Shown here: piece by piece, positions 4,902 through 14,547 of the stretch
How the letters are laid out: the number at the start of each line of letters is the position of its first letter
Numbering within the stretch: position 1 is the first letter of the stretch
Assembly: GCA_014192425.1 (NCBI GenBank)
Contig: BJHK01000009.1
Span: forward strand, 62,001-126,000
DNA: 64,000 nt
Direction: 5' to 3'
DNA from: Planctomycetia bacterium
GTDB lineage: Bacteria; Planctomycetota; Planctomycetia; Pirellulales; UBA1268
Program-made: the position numbers and the translations under genes
The notes under the pieces: generated by a model
What the model was told of the DNA's origin: nothing
Seen by the model: the letters and a program-made list of their open reading frames with translations, nothing else
Database searches by the model: none

Positions 4902-5729
4902 TCAGCGGCGCGGGGGGGCGTCCGGCGCCTCCGCCACCTGCGCACCGGGCTGCCGGCCCTCGAGCGCTGCCAGCCGGGCCCCGGCCTCGGCCGGGGCATC
5001 GCCGCGGGCGATGGCGCGACGGTAGCTCTCCACGGCGTCGGCCTCGCGGCCGAGCGACTCCTGGGCCATTCCCTCGAGCAGCAGGACCCGTCCCGGCACC
5101 TGGTTGGGGCCGTAGCTCTCCCCGAGGATCGCCAGCGTCGCCAGCGCCCGCTGCGGCCGGCCGAGCCGGCGGTAGGCCTCGGCGGTGTCGAGCAGCACGT
5201 CGCGATCACCGGGCTCGATCGCCAGCGCCCTGTGGAGGTCGGCCAGCGCCGCCTCGGCCTGGCCGCGGGCGAGGGCCAACTGGCCGCGCAGGTGCCAGGC
5301 GTCCGCCGATCGCGGCGCCAGGCGAACGGCCGTGCCGCTGAGCCGTTCGGCGTCGTCGAACAGCCCGAGCTCGAGGTACATCCGGCCGCCGGCGATGGCC
5401 AGACCGACGTCCTCAGGGGAGAGCCGCAGGGCCTGTGCGACCTGGGCCACAGCCTCCATCCGCTCGCCGCGCTTCCAGAGGACGTCGGCATAGTGCCGCC
5501 GGGCATCGACGTCGACGGGACAGTTTCTCACCGCCTGCTCGAAGAGCCCCTCGGCGCGGACGAGATCCCGCTGGTCCACGGCGGAAAGGCCCTCGTTGCA
5601 GAGCCGGCGCGTGGCGGCGAGTTCCGGCGGCGCCTGTCCGCGGCCGCGCACGAGCCGGCACCCGGAACAGCCGGCCGCGAGGAGCATCGCGACTAGTCCG
5701 CGAACGACGATCGGGCTCGGGCGGTGCAC
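4902..5729 (-). CDS. TPR lipoprotein
   Basis: 275 residues from a GTG start at 5727-5729. That start gives an Arg-containing n-region and a hydrophobic stretch LVAMLLAAGC with a lipobox-like AAGC, so a membrane-anchored lipoprotein is predicted. The next ATG (5687) would leave almost no n-region. The body holds about five TPR-like units, for example RAEGLFEQAVRNCPVDVDARRH and AALADLHRALAIEPGDRD. Convergent with the permease at 3236 and divergent from the sulfotransferase at 5959. It is probably an envelope protein-protein interaction scaffold; the partner is not evident. Confidence 0.7.
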   Translation of the reverse strand: MHRPSPIVVRGLVAMLLAAGCSGCRLVRGRGQAPPELAATRRLCNEGLSAVDQRDLVRAEGLFEQAVRNCPVDVDARRHYADVLWKRGERMEAVAQVAQALRLSPEDVGLAIAGGRMYLELGLFDDAERLSGTAVRLAPRSADAWHLRGQLALARGQAEAALADLHRALAIEPGDRDVLLDTAEAYRRLGRPQRALATLAILGESYGPNQVPGRVLLLEGMAQESLGREADAVESYRRAIARGDAPAEAGARLAALEGRQPGAQVAEAPDAPPRR

Positions 5730-5958
5730 GGTGTGGGCGGCTGCCGGGGCGAACGGGGCCGGGACGATAGCGGCCCGCGCGGATTCGCGACAGGCTGGTT
5801 GGCGGGCGCTGATCTGCGCGACACCGGCCCCGTCGCGCCAGTCCGCCGCCCTTGCCGGGATCGCCACGCCCGCCATCCGCGGCCGCGGCCGATCGGCTAC
5901 CATCTGGCGGAAATCAGCGCCCGCCGGGAACGGCCGCGGTTTCCCGGAACCCCAGCCC

Positions 5959-7113
5959 ATGCCCCCAGCCGCCACTGCCGACCAGCCCCGGGATCGTGCC
6001 TTCCATCCCTATCCGTGGTGGAGCCCGCGATTCTGGCACGGCATGCCGCTGGGCGTCTGGCTGCCGCTGGTGGCCGAGCACCGGGCGCGGGCCTCGCTCT
6101 CCAAATGGGGACTCATGGCCACGGTGTCGCTGGCCGCCGGCTTCAATTCGCTCGGCGGCGTGCTCTCAGAGGCCCGGTTCCGCGGCCGTCTCCGCCACCG
6201 GCCCGACACGCCCGCGCCGTTGTTCATCATCGGCCACTGGCGCAGCGGAACCACGCTGCTCCATGAACTGGCGATGCTCGACGACCGGTTCTGCTGCCCC
6301 AACACCTACCAGTGCCTCGCCCCCGGTCACTTCCTCCTCACCGAGGACACGCTGACGTCGGCGCTGTCCTGGATCATGCCCGCCAAGCGGCCCATGGACG
6401 ACGTCGCCGCGGGCTTCGATCGTCCGCAGGAGGACGAGTTCGCCCTCATGAACATGGGCGCGCCGTCCCCCTACCGACGCATGGCGTTTCCCCTCACGAG
6501 TCGCGACGCGCCCGAGTCGCTCGACCTGACCCTGCTGCCCGCGGCCGAACGCGAACGCTGGCAGGGCTGCCTGCGCCGGTTCCTCGACATGCTGGCGCTG
6601 CGCGACCCGCGCCGACCGGTGCTCAAGAGCCCGCCGCACACGGCCCGCGTCGGCGTGCTCGCCGGGATGTTTCCCGAGGCCCGCTTCCTGCACGTCGTCC
6701 GCGATCCGTTCGTCGTCGTCCCCTCGACGCTGCGGCTCTGGCGGTCGCTCCACGAGGTCCAGGGCCTGCAGGTCGACCGGGGCGAGGCGCTGGAACGCTA
6801 TGTGTTCGCGGCGTTCGCCGAAATGTACGACGCCTTCGAGCGGGACCGGCCGGCGCTCGCTGCCGGCCGGCTGCACGAACTGCGGTACGAGGACCTCGTT
6901 GCCGATCCGGTGGAGAACCTCCGCCTGGCCTACGAGCGACTCGACCTCGGGGACTTCGCCCGCGTCCGGCCGGCCGTCGAGCGCCAGGCCGCCGCCATGA
7001 AGCGCTACCGCACCAACACCTACCGCCACGATCCACGGCTGGTCGCCGAGATCACCGACCGGCTCCGCCCGTTCATCGACCGCTACCGCTATTCCGTGCC
7101 GGAGGCCGGCTGA
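5959..7113 (+). CDS. Sulfotransferase family protein
   Basis: 384 residues. The 5'-phosphosulfate-binding motif of PAPS sulfotransferases is seen as IIGHWRSGTTLLHE near residue 91, and the 3'-phosphate motif as FLHVVRDPFVVVPSTLRL near residue 245. A conserved HELRYEDLVADP follows near 310, also typical of the family. The enzyme would transfer sulfate from PAPS to an unknown acceptor, possibly a glycan or lipid. An N-terminal segment of about 90 residues (PYPWWSPRFWHGM...) precedes the catalytic domain and is hydrophobic enough to be membrane-associated. The ATG at 5959 was preferred because the upstream in-frame region is antisense to the TPR lipoprotein. The 3' end overlaps the FlhB-like gene by 41 bases. 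Confidence 0.85.
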   Translation: MPPAATADQPRDRAFHPYPWWSPRFWHGMPLGVWLPLVAEHRARASLSKWGLMATVSLAAGFNSLGGVLSEARFRGRLRHRPDTPAPLFIIGHWRSGTTLLHELAMLDDRFCCPNTYQCLAPGHFLLTEDTLTSALSWIMPAKRPMDDVAAGFDRPQEDEFALMNMGAPSPYRRMAFPLTSRDAPESLDLTLLPAAERERWQGCLRRFLDMLALRDPRRPVLKSPPHTARVGVLAGMFPEARFLHVVRDPFVVVPSTLRLWRSLHEVQGLQVDRGEALERYVFAAFAEMYDAFERDRPALAAGRLHELRYEDLVADPVENLRLAYERLDLGDFARVRPAVERQAAAMKRYRTNTYRHDPRLVAEITDRLRPFIDRYRYSVPEAG

Positions 7114-7834
7114 CCGCGGCCGCACGGCGCTGGAGGAGGAGCCGCACGCGGGGATCGGACTGGGAGGTCCGCGCCTCGGCGGCGAACTCCTCGGGAGTCA
7201 TGCGAATCGCCTTCTCGAACCGCAGTCGGGCGAGGGCCCACTGGCAGCCAGCGATGACCGCGGCCGCCGCGGCGACGGCGGCCACGCCGCGCCGGGCCGC
7301 CTCCCAGGCCAGTCCCTCCGCGGGCGCGGACTCCGCGGCGGAGAGGATCGAGAGCAGCGGGCCCGCCGCGAGCCCAGCAGCGCTGACCAGCAGCGCGAGC
7401 CCGAGGCCGTGCCCCGCGATCGCGTTGAGCGTGGCCCGGGAAAAGATTCGCCCCAGGCCGGCCCGGGGGTCGATCCGGCGCAGGTCGGGCGCGATGCGGC
7501 CCGGCCGCAGGGCGAACCCGTCGAGCAGAAACCGCACCGCCAGTCCCGCCGCCGCCCCGGCGGCCACGAGCACGGCAGTCGGGCTCCAGACCGCCACCGG
7601 TGGCAGCCCGAACAGATCGGCAGTCCCCAGGCCGCTGGCCGCGACGATCGCCTCGCGCATCATCTCGCTGGTGGCGGCGAGCGTCGTCCGTGCCCACCAG
7701 GGGAGGAGGAGGATCGCGACGACCGCGGAGGCCACCCAGGCGGGCAGCGCCGCAGTCGGCATCGCCCCCTGGCGACGGGCGGCCTCGCGGCGGCGCGGTG
7801 TTGCCGGCAGGCGCCGGTCGCTGGCTGCTGACAT
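7073..7834 (-). CDS. flhB: FlhB/YscU-like export gate protein lacking the autocleavage domain
   Basis: 253 residues, about 100 shorter than usual FlhB. The N-terminus MSAASDRRLPATPRRREAARRQG matches the start of FlhB (xTPRKxxEAREKG), and four hydrophobic segments follow. The linker is recognisable: GRIAPDLRRIDPRAGLGRIFS, then MTPEEFAAEARTSQSDPRVR. The protein then ends RAAAVSRPPARNSGSGR, so the cytoplasmic domain with the NPTH self-cleavage site that switches substrate class is absent. Its 3' end lies inside the sulfotransferase coding region on the other strand, and no downstream frame restores the domain. Last gene of the FliF-O-P-Q-R-FlhB run. Either a minimal export gate or a decayed gene; the clean reading frame argues against recent decay. 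Confidence 0.8.
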   Translation of the reverse strand: MSAASDRRLPATPRRREAARRQGAMPTAALPAWVASAVVAILLLPWWARTTLAATSEMMREAIVAASGLGTADLFGLPPVAVWSPTAVLVAAGAAAGLAVRFLLDGFALRPGRIAPDLRRIDPRAGLGRIFSRATLNAIAGHGLGLALLVSAAGLAAGPLLSILSAAESAPAEGLAWEAARRGVAAVAAAAAVIAGCQWALARLRFEKAIRMTPEEFAAEARTSQSDPRVRLLLQRRAAAVSRPPARNSGSGR

Positions 7835-7901
7835 GGACGTGACCTCGATGGACTGAACGAAAACCGCGGACGAACGGGAGAGGCGAACGTGGGACGAGCG
7901 T

Positions 7902-8696
7902 TCAGTGACTGGAGACGGCGGGCGGGTCGAAGCAGCGCTCGACGCGGGCCGTGGCGGCCTGGCCGAAGCCGCGCGTCCAGCCCTCGGCGCCGAGCAACAG
8001 GCAGCCGACGAGCACCAGGGCGGCGACCGCCTGTGGAATCCCCTGCCCCGGCTCGAAGCGGATCGTGCGCATGCAGAGAGCACCCACCGCGTGGGCGGCG
8101 ACGACGGCGGCCAGCGCCGGCACGGCGAGCGTGATCGCAACCGCGAACGCGTCCGCGAGCGTGCTGGCCAAGGACGTGGCGAGGTCGGCCCGCGCGGCGG
8201 CCGCACCGAGGCCGAGGCCGACCGGCACCGTGCGGACACTGTCGACGAACCCGGCGACGACGGCGAGGTGTCCGCCGGCCGCGAGAAAGCCACCCAGGCC
8301 CAGCCACCAGGCCAGCCGGGCCATGCCCGCCTCCTCGCTCCCCGCCTGCGGATCGAAATCACCGGCCCAGGCCAGCCCGGAGATGCTCCCTAGCAGGCCA
8401 CCCGCCCAGGACGCCGCAGCCAGCACGGCGGCGACCGCCAGGCCGAGGCCGAGGCCGACGAGCGCCTCACCGGCGACGACGACCGCGAGCGTCGAGGGTG
8501 CGTCGAGTCCGGCGCGGGCCGCCGCCGGCAGCGCCGCGCCGGTGAGGAGCAGGCCGAGCGCCCCGCGCAGCCGCCAGGGAACACCGGGAAAGACCGGCAT
8601 CAGCCCCACCGACACCGCGACGAGCATCCGCGCCGCCACCGCGCAGACGAGCCGCGGATCGAGAAGCGGGACGATTTCGCCAACGCCGAGCTGCAT
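7902..8696 (-). CDS. fliR: FliR-type export apparatus protein
   Basis: 264 residues with five to six hydrophobic segments. The order and sequence are FliR-like: a first helix containing ARMLVAVSVGLMPVF, then WRLRGALGLLLTGAALP, GEALVGLGLGLAVAAVLAA, and a loop LLGSISGLAWAGDFDPQAGSE at the position of the conserved FliR D/P-rich loop. FliR joins FliP and FliQ in the inner-membrane pore that exports flagellar or type III substrates. It lies 33 bases downstream of fliQ and 67 bases upstream of the shortened flhB, all one strand. Ala and Gly content is high, as in its neighbours. Confidence 0.88.
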   Translation of the reverse strand: MQLGVGEIVPLLDPRLVCAVAARMLVAVSVGLMPVFPGVPWRLRGALGLLLTGAALPAAARAGLDAPSTLAVVVAGEALVGLGLGLAVAAVLAAASWAGGLLGSISGLAWAGDFDPQAGSEEAGMARLAWWLGLGGFLAAGGHLAVVAGFVDSVRTVPVGLGLGAAAARADLATSLASTLADAFAVAITLAVPALAAVVAAHAVGALCMRTIRFEPGQGIPQAVAALVLVGCLLLGAEGWTRGFGQAATARVERCFDPPAVSSH

Positions 8697-8729
8697 CGCT
8701 TCGCCCCGCGCGGGGCCTCCGCGGCCCCT

Positions 8730-8999
8730 TCAGGACCCGCCGGCCGACTGCCGCAGGAACTCGACGAGCCGTTCCACCATCCACGGAAGCGTGACCAGCA
8801 GCGTGGCCGCCATCGCCACCACCCGGGGCACGAAGCCGAGGATCGCCTCGTGCACGCCGGTGGCGGCCTGCACCAGGCCGGTCAGCGTGCCGACGACGAA
8901 CCCCACGACGAGGACCGGGGCCGCCACCACCAGGCCGGTGACGACCGCCTGGCGCACGAGTTCCGCGAGTTCGGTTTCCATGATCGGTTCGTGATCCAC
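8730..8999 (-). CDS. fliQ: FliQ-type export apparatus protein
   Basis: 89 residues, the normal FliQ size, with two transmembrane helices (about residues 17-42 and 55-78). The sequence LVRQAVVTGLVVAAPVLVVGF then TGLVQAATGVHEAILGFVPR matches the FliQ core, in which Q-A-x-T and the FVP(K/R) element are hallmarks. An alternative start (METELAELV, codon at 8979-8981) would remove six residues and give a more standard N-terminus. It is part of the export pore with FliP and FliR. Immediately downstream of fliP. Confidence 0.9.
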   Translation of the reverse strand: MDHEPIMETELAELVRQAVVTGLVVAAPVLVVGFVVGTLTGLVQAATGVHEAILGFVPRVVAMAATLLVTLPWMVERLVEFLRQSAGGS

Positions 9000-9020
9000 C
9001 GGGTGCCGGGTCGCGATGCC

Positions 9021-9917
9021 TCAGGGGCTCGTGCCGCCGAAGCCGTCGAGCAGCGCGCGGATGACGAGCGTCCAGCCGTCGGCCACGACGAACACCAGCA
9101 GTTTGAGCGGCAGGGAGACGAGCGACGGAGGGAGCATCACGAGGCCGGAGGAGACGACGAGCGTCGCCACGAGGATGTCGAGGACGAGGAACGGCACGAG
9201 CAGACGGAGCCCGATCGCGAACGCGGTCTCCAGCTCGCTGACGAGAAACGCCGGCAGCAGCGCCTCGATCGGGACTTCGTCGTAGGTCTTCACCTGCCGC
9301 GGCCCGGACGGATGCCGGGCGAGGAACAAGAGCATCGTGTCGCGGTTGCCGGACCGCTCGATCTGCGTGGCCATCCAGCGGCGCAGCGGCAGCGAGCCGC
9401 GGTCGAATGCCTCCGTCGCGGCGAGCGTGCCCTGCTGGTAGGGCTCCACGCCCTCCCGCCAGGCCTCGGTCCAGACCGGCCACATCACGAGGCCCGAGAG
9501 GAAGATCGCCAGCGAGCCGACGATCTGGTTCGAGGGGATCTGCGGGGCGCCGATGCCGTGCCTGACGAGCGTCAGCACGACCGACATGCGCACGAAGCAG
9601 GTCGTCATGAGGAACACGGCCGGCGCGATGCTCATCACGCCAAACATCAACAGCGACGGAAGGGCGGCGTCGAAGGGCCGGGCGCCGAGCGACCGCCACA
9701 GGCCGTCGGCCGACGCGGTCGCCCCCGGGGTCGGCGTGCGCCGGCCCACCCCCTCGACCGCCCCGGGCCCGATCGGCAGGCTCCGGTCGCCGGCCGGGGG
9801 TGCATCGGTCGCGACGCCGGCGGCTGGGTCTTCCGCGCGGCCCGGCAGCGACGGCGCGGCCGACAGCGCCAGCACGACCGTGAAAACACATGCCCGCCGG
9901 AAGGACGAAAAATTCAT
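9021..9917 (-). CDS. fliP: FliP-type export apparatus protein
   Basis: 298 residues. A signal peptide (MNFSSFRRACVFTVVLALSAAPSLPGRAE) and a Pro/Ala-rich linker precede the conserved FliP body: MSIAPAVFLMTTCFVRMSVV, then HGIGAPQIPSNQIVGSLAIFL, then LLPAFLVSELETAFAIGLRL and LVSLPLKLLVFVVADGW. These are the diagnostic FliP helices, and FliP subunits form the core of the export pore. The start ATG overlaps the stop of the FliO-like gene by four bases (ATGA), so the two are probably translationally coupled. The linker between signal peptide and body is longer than in standard FliP. Confidence 0.93.
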   Translation of the reverse strand: MNFSSFRRACVFTVVLALSAAPSLPGRAEDPAAGVATDAPPAGDRSLPIGPGAVEGVGRRTPTPGATASADGLWRSLGARPFDAALPSLLMFGVMSIAPAVFLMTTCFVRMSVVLTLVRHGIGAPQIPSNQIVGSLAIFLSGLVMWPVWTEAWREGVEPYQQGTLAATEAFDRGSLPLRRWMATQIERSGNRDTMLLFLARHPSGPRQVKTYDEVPIEALLPAFLVSELETAFAIGLRLLVPFLVLDILVATLVVSSGLVMLPPSLVSLPLKLLVFVVADGWTLVIRALLDGFGGTSP

Positions 9918-10534
9918 GCGGCCTCCCCCGCCCGGGGCGGCGCCGGCGCGGGCCGCTGACTGGCCGGGGGCTTTTGCCGCTCGAGGCTGCGGCCCGCCAG
10001 ACGGGCGCCGCGGCAGGCGGCGACGATGCACTCAGTGGCCTGCGCATCGCCGACTTCGGCGAGCGTCCGGGCTCCGGATGAGGACAGCCCGACGAGCAGC
10101 GTCTTCGGGCCGAAGCGGATGACGCGGGCGGACTGCCCGTTGCCGAGGGCCGCCTCGCCGAGGACCTCGAACACGTCGGCGGGGAGCCGGGCCCGGCCGC
10201 GGCCGGCCCGCGTTCTGACGACCGCCAGCACGGCGAACGCCCCCCCGATCGCTGCCAGCAGCCGCCAATCGGGCAACGGCTGCCGCGTCGTCCGCGTGCC
10301 CGTGGGCTCAGCCGCACGGGACGGTTCGACAGACGTGTCGGTGGTCAGCGGCAGGCCGCCGCTCCGCGGCAGCGCCGGGGCAAGGAAGGTCGCCGGCTGC
10401 ACCGGCGCCGCATCGGGGCTGGGGGCCACCGGCGGTTCCGGTTCGGCCGCCAGCAGGCCGACGACCGGTCCGGCGAAGAGGCCGACGACGCCGGCGATCA
10501 CCACCATGCGCAGGGTCTGCGAGCGAATGCTCAT
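9914..10534 (-). CDS. fliO: FliO-like protein
   Basis: 206 residues. An N-terminal signal-like segment (MVVIAGVVGLFAGPVVGLLA) is followed by a Pro-rich periplasmic stretch, one transmembrane helix near residues 90-105 (WRLLAAIGGAFAVLAVV), and a cytoplasmic domain with VFEVLGEAALGNGQSARVIRFGPKTLLVGLSSSGARTLAEV. That last pattern (xLGxGxxxxVVRVGxxxLLLGV) is the FliO signature. FliO assists assembly of the FliP ring. It is coupled by ATGA overlaps to both FliF (upstream) and FliP (downstream). FliO is usually associated with flagella rather than injectisomes, which favours a flagellar origin for the cluster. Confidence 0.82.
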   Translation of the reverse strand: MSIRSQTLRMVVIAGVVGLFAGPVVGLLAAEPEPPVAPSPDAAPVQPATFLAPALPRSGGLPLTTDTSVEPSRAAEPTGTRTTRQPLPDWRLLAAIGGAFAVLAVVRTRAGRGRARLPADVFEVLGEAALGNGQSARVIRFGPKTLLVGLSSSGARTLAEVGDAQATECIVAACRGARLAGRSLERQKPPASQRPAPAPPRAGEAA

Positions 10535-12048
10535 GCGGCGCTCCTCGTCGGGTACTCGCCGGTGCCGACCTCGTCCGTCCCCGGCCGGCCGGCATCGATC
10601 CGTGACCAGTCGATCCGCGCCGCGTGCCGGCGGGTCCTCTCGCCGCGCCGTGGCTGCGCGGGCCGATCGCCGGCCCGCAGCACGAGCCAGGCGAGGAGCG
10701 TGGCGCAGAGGCCGATCGCCACCAGCCAGACCTCCCGGGGCACGTTGCCGGGTCGGCCGCCGGCGACGGCGATCCAGGCGGCGTCGATGAATTCACCGGG
10801 CGTCTGCGGGTCGGCGGCCGGCGGCCGCGGCGTCACGGCCGACGTGGCCGGCGGCTCGCGTCGGCCCGCCGGACCGGCGCCGACGGGAATCCGCGTGACG
10901 GCGATCCGGCAGCGGTCGACGGGCAGTTCGGCAGGAAGCAGCGGGCGCACGACCCCGCGGATGCGGTCCTCGGCCTGCCGGTCGCAGGCAGCGAGGTCGG
11001 CCCGTGGATCGTGGGCCAGCGCGGCCCGCAGTTCGTCCTGAAAGTGCCCCTCCGGGATGGCGATCGCGACCACGACCGAGTGCGGTGCGCCGGGCACGGT
11101 CGCCACGGCCGCCGGCGGCGCCTCGACGGGCCCCGACCTGCCCACCTCGGCCGGCGCGTTCGCCGCCGCCGACTGCTGGCGGACCGGAGGAGCGGCAGAC
11201 GCCGGGGGAGCCGCGGGCGCAGCGAAGCCGACGGTCACGTTGACGATCGCCCCTTTCACGAACCCGATGCCGTGCCTGACCTTCGCGGCGAGATGCTTCT
11301 CGTGGGCGATGCGGCGGGCGAGTTCGGGGTCCGCGGCCGCGATGTCGGCCGCCGCGGCGGAGACCGGCCCGCTGTGGTGCTGGCCGGTCCGCAGGTCGAT
11401 GACGGCGACGCGGTCGGCGGACAGGCCGGCGATCGCGGCCGCCACGGAGACACGGATCGCCTGCACACGCTGCGGCTCGAGTTCCGCATCCAGCCTCGTG
11501 CGGACGTTCACGCTGGCGGTCCGCACCACGGTCGACGCGACGCCCCCTTCGAGACCCGTCCGCTGCTCCTCGTCGTAGAGCACCGACGCGTCCTCGATGC
11601 CCGGCATCGCGCAGATCACCTGCTTGAGCTCGTCCTGGATGGCGACACGGTACGCCTGCTGCTGCGACTTCGTGCTCTGCCAGGGGCTGTTCTTCTCCAG
11701 CACCCGGTGCAGGCTGCTGCCGAACCGCTGCGGCAGCGCCTGGGCCTCGACGAGGGCCCGTTGGTAGGTGCCGTGCCGCGACCGGGGAACCCAGATCCGG
11801 CCGTCGTCGGTGCGGTGGTCGGTGAGCTGCGCCTTGTCGAGCGCCGCTTCGACGACGGCCATCTCCGTGTAGGGAAGCACGGTGCCGGGCAGCAGTTCGA
11901 CCTCGTCGCTCAAGGGGCGGTCGCGAAGCAGCCAGAACGACCAGCCGATCGAGGCGGCGACGATGCCGCAGGCGATGACCTGCGCGGGGGACACCCGGGC
12001 CAGGATCCCGGCTGCCTGTCCGCTCGGATGCGAGGGTTCACTGGGCAT
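10531..12048 (-). CDS. fliF: FliF-like MS-ring protein
   Basis: 505 residues. Transmembrane helix 1 (about 20-40) is followed by the YscJ/FliF ring-building region: LLPGTVLPYTEMAVVEAALD, then RALVEAQALPQRFGSSLHR, FQ-like KSQQQAYRVAIQDELKQVI and ASVNVRTRLDAELEPQRVQAIR. A Pro/Ala-rich linker precedes a second helix near 435-455 (VWLVAIGLCATLLAWLVLR). The cytoplasmic tail (HAARIDWSRIDAGRPGTDE) does not show an obvious FliG-binding helix. FliF forms the membrane ring that houses the export gate. First gene of the export run; the stop overlaps the FliO start (ATGA). Confidence 0.85.
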   Translation of the reverse strand: MPSEPSHPSGQAAGILARVSPAQVIACGIVAASIGWSFWLLRDRPLSDEVELLPGTVLPYTEMAVVEAALDKAQLTDHRTDDGRIWVPRSRHGTYQRALVEAQALPQRFGSSLHRVLEKNSPWQSTKSQQQAYRVAIQDELKQVICAMPGIEDASVLYDEEQRTGLEGGVASTVVRTASVNVRTRLDAELEPQRVQAIRVSVAAAIAGLSADRVAVIDLRTGQHHSGPVSAAAADIAAADPELARRIAHEKHLAAKVRHGIGFVKGAIVNVTVGFAAPAAPPASAAPPVRQQSAAANAPAEVGRSGPVEAPPAAVATVPGAPHSVVVAIAIPEGHFQDELRAALAHDPRADLAACDRQAEDRIRGVVRPLLPAELPVDRCRIAVTRIPVGAGPAGRREPPATSAVTPRPPAADPQTPGEFIDAAWIAVAGGRPGNVPREVWLVAIGLCATLLAWLVLRAGDRPAQPRRGERTRRHAARIDWSRIDAGRPGTDEVGTGEYPTRSAA

Positions 12049-12113: not shown

Positions 12114-12578
12114 TCAGGCCGCCCGGCTGCTCGCGCGCCGCCGGGGAAAGACAAGCGTGACCGCCGTGCCCCCTTCAGGGCAGCGGGCCGCGGCGACCGT
12201 GGCACCCGCGCGGTCCGCGAGGACGCGGAGTTCGCCGGCGATGTCGGGCTCGAAGGCGTCCCCCGAGTCGGCGACCTCGATCTCCACCCGGTCGGTGCAG
12301 GTCAGCGCGGTGACGACGACCTCGGCGCATCCCGGTCGACGCCGGTCACGGCAGCCGCTGGCCGCGAACGCGGCCTCGACCAGCGGGGCGAGGACGCCGC
12401 GGAGGTGCCGCGGATCGCCCGGCACGTCGAGGCCGGCGTCGACGTCGAGCGTCGCGGTCACCGGCAGACCGTCCCGGTCCCGCTGCCGCCGGTCCGCCGC
12501 GGCCACGAGCTCCGTCAGCAGGGCGTGCAGGCCATCGGGGCGGTGGAGGGGAAGAATGTGTCGCAGGCTGACTGTCAT
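12114..12578 (-). CDS. HATPase-domain protein without a kinase H-box
   Basis: 154 residues. The C-terminal part has the GHKL ATP-binding boxes: VEIEVADSGDAFEPDIAGEL resembles the G1 box (DxG), and CPEGGTAVTLVFPRR resembles the G2 box. The N-terminal region (HRPDGLHALLTELVAAADRRQRD) is helical, but I see no histidine phosphoacceptor motif and no sensor or membrane segment. It may be an anti-sigma-factor-like or partner-swapping kinase, or a degenerate sensor fragment. It lies 65 bases upstream of fliF and 33 bases downstream of the esterase-like gene, all on one strand, so it could be co-transcribed with the export genes. Confidence 0.6.
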   Translation of the reverse strand: MTVSLRHILPLHRPDGLHALLTELVAAADRRQRDRDGLPVTATLDVDAGLDVPGDPRHLRGVLAPLVEAAFAASGCRDRRRPGCAEVVVTALTCTDRVEIEVADSGDAFEPDIAGELRVLADRAGATVAAARCPEGGTAVTLVFPRRRASSRAA

Positions 12579-12611: not shown

Positions 12612-13280
12612 TCAGGTCGCCAGTGGGGAGCGGACGCGTTCCGGCGGGCCGCAGACCTCGCCCATGATCCAGCGATTCACGTCGCCAAGCATCGCCCGCG
12701 AAAGGCCGCGGCCCTGCGGGTAGATCCGCACGGCCAACGCGCCGCCCGCGGCATGAAACAGCCGCAGCGTGCGATCGATCTGGCAGGCGTCGGCCGGCGC
12801 GGCGCTGGCACGGCAGCAGAGCAGCATCGGCAGCCGGCGCACCGCGTCGAGCCGGGCGAACAGCGACTCGTCGAGGGGGAACCGTCCGGCGAGCGAGACC
12901 ACGCCCGCGAACCGGCGCGGATCGCGGCAGCCGATCCGAAACGCCTCGGAACCGGCCGCCCCACGGCCGACGAGGAAGATCCGGCCGGCATGGATGCTGA
13001 GCCGGCCGCGGACCGCGTCGATGGCCCGCCACACGGCCGCCTCGCCGCTGCCGCCTGGCTGCACGGCGACGAAGTTCCGCAGGCTCACCCGGGCCATGGC
13101 CCGGTCGAAGTCGAAGGCCGCGCCCCGGTCCGCCAGCCAGACGACGAGCGGGTAGTCGTAGCCGGGCTCGTATCCCTGCGGGATGAACAGCCGGCCGCCG
13201 GCGGGGAGCCCGGCCGCCGTCAGCCCGGGCTCGGAAACAACGGCCCCATTCCGTTTGCAGATGGTCCGGCTGGCTCGCAT
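12612..13280 (-). CDS. Alpha/beta-hydrolase-like protein with altered nucleophile site
   Basis: 222 residues from ATG 13280. LFIPQGYEPGYDYPLVVWLAD matches the first strand region of the esterase D / PHB depolymerase-like fold, and SIHAGRIFLVGRGAAGSEAFRIG sits where the GxSxG nucleophile elbow is expected. Here the elbow reads GRGAAG, so the catalytic serine appears to be replaced by alanine. The C-terminal GGALAVRIYPQGRGLSRAMLGDVNRWIM has no evident catalytic histidine; the equivalent of the usual H is not obvious. It may be a pseudo-enzyme. It is co-directional with the HATPase gene and the export cluster, 33 bases apart from the former. Confidence 0.55.
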   Translation of the reverse strand: MRASRTICKRNGAVVSEPGLTAAGLPAGGRLFIPQGYEPGYDYPLVVWLADRGAAFDFDRAMARVSLRNFVAVQPGGSGEAAVWRAIDAVRGRLSIHAGRIFLVGRGAAGSEAFRIGCRDPRRFAGVVSLAGRFPLDESLFARLDAVRRLPMLLCCRASAAPADACQIDRTLRLFHAAGGALAVRIYPQGRGLSRAMLGDVNRWIMGEVCGPPERVRSPLAT

Positions 13281-13464
13281 GGATGGCCTCGGTGCTGGGG
13301 CGGAACGCGGCTCTTGCGGCCGCGAAACGGGCCGAAGGCCGGCGGGTTGTAGCCTCCCGTCCGACGCCGGGCAACGCCAGCGCGACCGACCGATCGGCCG
13401 GTCCCCCACGCGGCCCGCCCCACGTCAAGCAGGGCAATCCAGGCAAGCGCCGTGGTCGTCCGGG

Positions 13465-14547
<1,083 letters not shown>

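Follow-up and report, generated by a model that had tools for sequence, protein, structure and literature searches.

Flagellar export genes in bacteria without flagella are already known from Lysobacter, Buchnera and, as an older derivative, the Myxococcales. In the export apparatus itself, the membrane part of FlhB wraps around FliPQR, and its loop between helices 2 and 3 is essential for secretion (PMC7064499). Salmonella exports without FliHIJ when the proton motive force (PMF) or the substrate level is raised; the proton flux of FlhA is not bypassed, and excess substrate bypasses the loss of the C-ring (PMC4230889). For planctomycetes, we found no description of a comparable gate in the open-licence literature, although one may have been published elsewhere, and the available part of a freshwater planctomycete survey reports flagellar genes as present or absent and mentions no residual gate (PMC6461901). 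Here, we analyzed a 64,000-nucleotide stretch (the window; C9:62001-126000) of G000, a draft planctomycete genome of 3.98 Mb that is 95.9% complete and whose named close relatives are planctomycete metagenome-assembled genomes (MAGs), several of them labelled Pirellulales. Within the window, fliF, fliO, fliP, fliQ, fliR and flhB form one tight minus-strand run, and FlhB lacks the self-cleaving domain. We favor, with moderate confidence, the reading that these genes encode a flagellum-derived inner-membrane exporter that is driven by PMF and operates without ATPase, C-ring or specificity switch.

All six genes listed in a preliminary description of the window were recovered on the minus strand with Pfam support. 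The first, fliF (10531..12048), encodes a 505 aa MS-ring protein (Pfam YscJ_FliF 8e-18, and the family alignment) with two membrane helices and the ring-building domains, and its model resembles solved structures of the FliF MS ring (Foldseek E as low as 9e-17). The tail past the second membrane helix is short, its sole constant feature in the family alignment is an I-D/N-W motif, and no FliG-binding helix can be recognized in it, as the preliminary description had noted; no FliG gene was found in G000. It is followed by fliO (9914..10534), encoding a gate-assembly protein of 206 aa (Pfam FliO 2e-5, above cut-off), and by fliP (9021..9917), whose start overlaps the fliO stop (ATGA) and which encodes the export-gate pore subunit of ~298 aa (Pfam FliP 1e-59). 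The export-gate subunits FliQ (89 aa; 8730..8999; Pfam Bac_export_3 4e-21) and FliR (264 aa; 7902..8696; Pfam Bac_export_1 7e-26) come next, and the run ends with flhB (7073..7834), which encodes a 253 aa protein (Pfam Bac_export_2 3e-23). FliP scores 204 bits with the NCBIfam fliP model versus 140 with injectisome SctR.

The match of FlhB to its profile spans positions 2-241 of 335, and the protein ends ~42 residues past the start of the MTPEEF motif; it hence has no NPTH domain, just as the preliminary description had proposed. Its layout comprises an N-terminal segment, four long helices, the conserved gate loop and a linker helix, after which the protein ends; the loop between helices 2 and 3 is among the well-conserved parts in the family. 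An AlphaFold model (mean pLDDT 83) has as its nearest solved chain the Vibrio FlhB 6s3l_K, from a FliPQR-FlhB complex (E 0.5, probability 0.75); with so weak a structural match, the model adds little beyond the intact helices. When we compared FlhB lengths across relatives, the same end was found in all 12 genera of the family (60 genomes sampled), at profile position ~220-250 wherever the end is visible, and the truncated form is present in 29 of the 32 good family genomes. A frameshift or misassembly, which the preliminary description had named as a way in which NPTH might be restored, is ruled out, since all relatives read end at about the same point and a sulfotransferase gene converges on, and overlaps, the 3' end of flhB. 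G000 carries one flhB copy, neither a second full-length copy nor the motor genes are present, and the family search returned no stand-alone FlhB C-domain. One family genome, G058, does have a second, full-length flhB, located together with flhA on contig C272. We take it as contamination because its scores lie far above those of the family, the two genes share one contig, a normal truncated flhB is encoded on C80, and the bin has 5% contamination. Elsewhere in the phylum, our search found truncated FlhB in planctomycete families f33, f66, f67 and f70 and as second copies in f21, as well as stand-alone FlhB C-domains of ~75-90 residues in many genomes of other groups.

FlhA, FliG, FliM and FliI had been reported as missing from the window, which they are; flhA, though, does occur in G000, at C9:9347-11455 on the contig of the window and ~52 kb away from where the window begins. 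The encoded protein scores 601 bits with the flagellar model versus 432 with the injectisome model, retains the MDGAS segment, which holds an Asp tied to proton use, and has a C-domain that reaches position 655 of 657. The export-gate set of FliP, FliQ, FliR, the FlhB membrane domain and FlhA is thus complete in G000. Further absences were assessed by profile (family-model) searches of draft assemblies, with four flagellated reference genomes as positive controls of each search, all of which matched; for some searches we also used an order sample of 118 Pirellulales genomes at least 85% complete. FliG was found in 0/60 family genomes and FliM/N in 0/30; rod/hook proteins (PF00460) were found in 0/30 and were likewise missing from all family members in the order sample, and flagellin (PF00669) was found in none of the ~20 family genomes of that sample. 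Nor was a SctN/FliI-type ATPase found, and the proteins are closer to flagellar than to injectisome models. G000 has four ATP-synt_ab matches, two of them strong and F1-type; the other two were considered as FliI and rejected, being Rho by sequence. The match pattern is similar in relatives. The two Rho termination factors lie at C9:159348-159971 (L093) and C1:304266-304880 (L094), and paired Rho factors may be common to the family, most members of which have two weak ATP-synt_ab matches.

The genome-wide search suggested in the preliminary description therefore yielded flhA and none of fliI, fliG, flagellin or a separate FlhB C-domain. We regard the apparatus as non-motile and minimal because FliG, FliM/N, rod/hook, flagellin and FliI are absent genome-wide. 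That a true flagellum exists, with its remaining parts too diverged for recognition or lost in assembly gaps, is a highly improbable explanation: the genomes are drafts (G000 at 95.9%), but FliG, FliM/N, rod/hook and flagellin were searched for in 60, 30, 30 and ~20 family genomes, respectively, without a match in any, and the same FliG, rod/hook and flagellin searches do match in most relatives of the order.

Comparison across Pirellulales revealed loci at different stages of reduction. Flagellates (L185, L186) carry fliF-G-H-I-J, flgE, motAB and fliN-O-P-Q-R-flhB; several rod-less lineages have HATPase-fliF-G-H-I-J-N-O-P-Q-R-flhB without motAB or flgE (rod-less loci keeping fliGHIJN are L169, L170, L174, L176, L180, L187-L189, L193 and L194); and the locus of this family, like L182 and L184 of another family, has only fliF-O-P-Q-R-flhB, this family being the most reduced stage. 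In the gene tree, which was built quickly and has long branches and warnings of compositional bias, the rod-less f17 and f18 rows nest among flagellates and f13 and f19 group near them; descent of the rod-less gates from a flagellum is thus well supported. The branch of this family is long and its exact place unsure; gene order together with the gene trees ties the apparatus to the flagellar genes of Pirellulales. Flagellated members such as G115 (L185) have two FliG-like genes, of which the one within the fliF operon matches weakly and the other, located elsewhere, strongly, and rod-less members with fliGHIJN mostly have the weak FliG-like gene alone.

Across the order sample, rod/hook proteins are present in 76/118 genomes and flagellin in 74/118, leaving 42 rod-less genomes, of which 20 belong to this family and 22 do not (the latter identified by subtraction from the genome list). 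Among these 22, FlhB is cut after the linker in 14 and has a C-domain with an altered NPTE site in eight (NQAE, DAEG, NPAE, GPSG, NSAG, FGRQ, DGKG and NSSG). In 74 tree rows, NPT[E/H] is missing from 42/42 rod-less and present in 32/32 rod-bearing genomes. Since these 32 were mostly best-scoring rows, 20 more rod-bearing genomes were read from lower scores, of which 19 have NPTE and one has NPTQ. Loss of the flagellum and loss of the FlhB switch thus coincide completely in the rows read (Fisher's exact p = 1e-21, without correction for kinship). The tree implies ~8 changes of the trait, 3-4 of them well supported; three independent pairs are well supported and all concordant, too few for sign-test significance, and the cleanest pair belongs to one genus, in which G090 has rods and NPTE and G076 has neither. 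The single-contig genome G151 carries a flagellar set with intact site and, in addition, a second fliP-fliQ-fliR-flhB cluster with a truncated FlhB (C1:1237061-1237753, L178). The order offers a natural experiment on the purpose of FlhB self-cleavage: among the genomes read, those without a rod have lost the site or the whole domain, and those with a rod have it intact.

Such a graded series, in which fliGHIJN is kept and then lost and a ruined cleavage site is followed by loss of the FlhB C-domain, is also what stepwise loss of a flagellum would leave if the gate genes were idle, decaying leftovers; in addition, the proteins fall under the curated flagellar equivalog cut-offs, and FliO and the HATPase evolve rather fast. 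Even so, we consider a relic unlikely. The genes are intact and co-ordered in 12 genera and nearly all good genomes, and the series halts at one fixed set family-wide instead of going to zero. FlhA is present in 54/60 family genomes (12 genera), including 32/32 good ones, and the order malate dehydrogenase-esterase-like-HATPase-fliF-fliO-fliP-fliQ-fliR-flhB recurs in the sampled genomes wherever the contig reaches. Moreover, in two close pairs all fli/flh genes of the operon have dN/dS values of 0.08-0.32 (0.15-0.17 for FlhB), calculated from the called reading frames, of which some have extended starts. The operon genes are under purifying selection, which argues against a relic, and the selection data refute that explanation in part. 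This is, then, a family of aquatic planctomycetes in which the flagellum has been lost and the membrane gate kept in every genus sampled.

The preliminary description suggested a stripped-down, non-motile secretion system of flagellar descent. The genome-wide absences support its minimal and non-motile character, and the gene order and the trees its descent; its role in secretion we infer, and such an exporter would operate as follows. FliF would build a ring within the inner membrane, and FliO would help to assemble the FliP-FliQ-FliR pore, around which the FlhB membrane part would wrap above a FlhA ring. With no FliI ATPase, C-ring or FlhB switch domain, the substrate would dock directly on the FlhA cytoplasmic domain, be driven through the gate by the PMF and end in the periplasm, rod, hook and filament being gone. 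The switch domain of FlhB may have been dropped because there is no hook after which the substrate class must change. A PMF-driven gate loaded from FlhA is the simplest working model because of the Salmonella precedent and because the FlhA MDGAS segment and full C-domain are kept.

What such a gate would export is suggested by the neighborhood of flhA, which is followed by a gene for a FliA/WhiG-type sigma factor (C9:8362-9270) and then by one for a 94 aa FlgM anti-sigma factor (C9:7752-8036, L017). The three genes occur together in 18/18 family loci with enough sequence. FlgM matches Pfam PF04316 above cut-off in 3/3 members scanned (E 2e-6 to 2e-7) and falls below the NCBIfam equivalog cut-off. 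In flagellates, FlgM is a known substrate of the flagellar export gate; here, no other linked protein belongs to a class known to be exported by this gate, and FlgM is therefore the best substrate candidate. Export of FlgM would free the sigma factor and couple gene expression to the gate. We tentatively propose, as one possibility, that the gate is kept as a secretion-coupled transcription switch, in which PMF-driven FlgM export lets the sigma factor read membrane energy or gate state; if so, a regulatory circuit of gate, sigma28 and FlgM has outlived its flagellum.

Several points weigh against export, and against FlgM as its substrate. The N-terminal half of FlgM is less conserved (majority fraction 0.62-0.71) than the sigma-binding C-terminal half (0.82), a pattern that fits an ordinary anti-sigma factor, and FlgM could be retained without export. 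A search with a model built from this family only turned up no FlgM-like neighbor of fliA at L174, L175 and L180, rod-less loci that are less reduced. Sigma28 promoters of the E. coli type are no more frequent in 800 kb of family sequence than in shuffled sequence, and none stands out upstream of flhA. Finally, the draft genomes may hold a very diverged ATPase or C-ring protein, and the searches did not include FliH, FliJ, FliE and FliK.

A different cargo is envisaged if the gate is an inner-membrane exporter of effector-like proteins that cooperates with a separate surface system, in the way that the needleless type III secretion system (T3SS) of Myxococcus cooperates with a Tad pilus in predation. 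The T3SS-like apparatus of Myxococcus is functional without secretin, needle and translocon (PMC12075869), and flagellum-less Lysobacter exports flagellin via retained flagellar export genes (PMC7277350), but both precedents retain the ATPase. Moreover, no effector or pilus gene linked to the loci was seen, flgM being the only linked substrate-type gene, and we assign this explanation a low probability.

Beyond the six genes, the window contains conserved neighbors. Directly upstream of fliF lies a gene for a 154 aa HATPase_c-only protein (12114..12578, -; Pfam HATPase_c 9e-6), found at the same position in family loci. It is probably what remains of a histidine kinase whose gene precedes the flagellar operon in a flagellate relative; in flagellate G115, the HATPase match falls in an open frame of 459 aa that precedes fliF (L198:4716-6095, -). 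Further upstream are genes for a 265 aa esterase-like alpha/beta-hydrolase (12612..13409, -), with a weak PHB-depolymerase-esterase match and syntenic in the family, and for a malate/lactate dehydrogenase (13465..14538, -; Pfam Ldh_1_N/C and synteny), a conserved neighbor outside the apparatus. At the other end, the sulfotransferase gene (5596..7113, +; Pfam Sulfotransfer_3 6e-29) has a 3' end that shares 41 bp with that of flhB and is a convergent neighbor in many relatives, and its true start may lie further in than called. The Pirellulales-type operon is also borne by MAG records (L125, L129, L132, L133, L139, L140, L144 and L147), several titled Candidatus Kuenenia stuttgartiensis and two Planctomicrobium piriforme; as they carry this operon, the titles look misassigned.

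To our knowledge, this is the smallest naturally kept flagellar export gate. It lets one ask if FlhA, the membrane part of FlhB and FliPQR are enough for export driven by protons, and it is relevant to the origin of other systems from flagella, several losses having occurred in the order, each leaving a gate behind. The closest known system is the flagellar export apparatus (FliF-FliOPQR-FlhB-FlhA), with which the family shares the same proteins and operon order, with flagellar scores above injectisome scores; unlike it, the planctomycete system is without ATPase complex, C-ring, rod, hook, filament and the FlhB self-cleaving domain.

The gene set also matches the CORE complex, whose link to nanotubes has been mentioned (PMC9380563). 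A role other than export is conceivable, either as the CORE complex that reportedly supports membrane nanotubes or in the hat-shaped structure of the inner membrane that has been linked to the flagellar export core, and the Campylobacter hat looks normal without the FlhB C-domain. We nevertheless see little likelihood in such a role. Unlike CORE, which does not need them, this family keeps FliF, the FliA-type sigma factor and FlgM, and its FlhB is without C-domain; nanotubes have been argued to be a manifestation of cell death (PMC7532143); and the hat fails to explain the retention of FliF, FliO and FliQ because the H. pylori hat persists without them.

Other known systems offer further parallels to an exporter of flagellar descent. 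Buchnera basal bodies likewise keep export genes after loss of flagellin and motor, with fliI often shed (PMC8109811), but Buchnera is an endosymbiont that keeps the rod, ring and part of the hook, whereas this family is without rod and comes mostly from open-water samples. Lysobacter enzymogenes likewise has functional flagellar export genes without flagella, with fliI present and working and flhB needed for flagellin export (PMC7277350). The non-flagellar (NF-T3SS) or needleless T3SS of Myxococcales is also without secretin or needle and is considered to carry proteins over the inner membrane (PMC3459982, PMC12075869); it keeps, however, the ATPase and sorting platform, while the planctomycete genes group with Pirellulales flagellar genes, which points to a separate origin.

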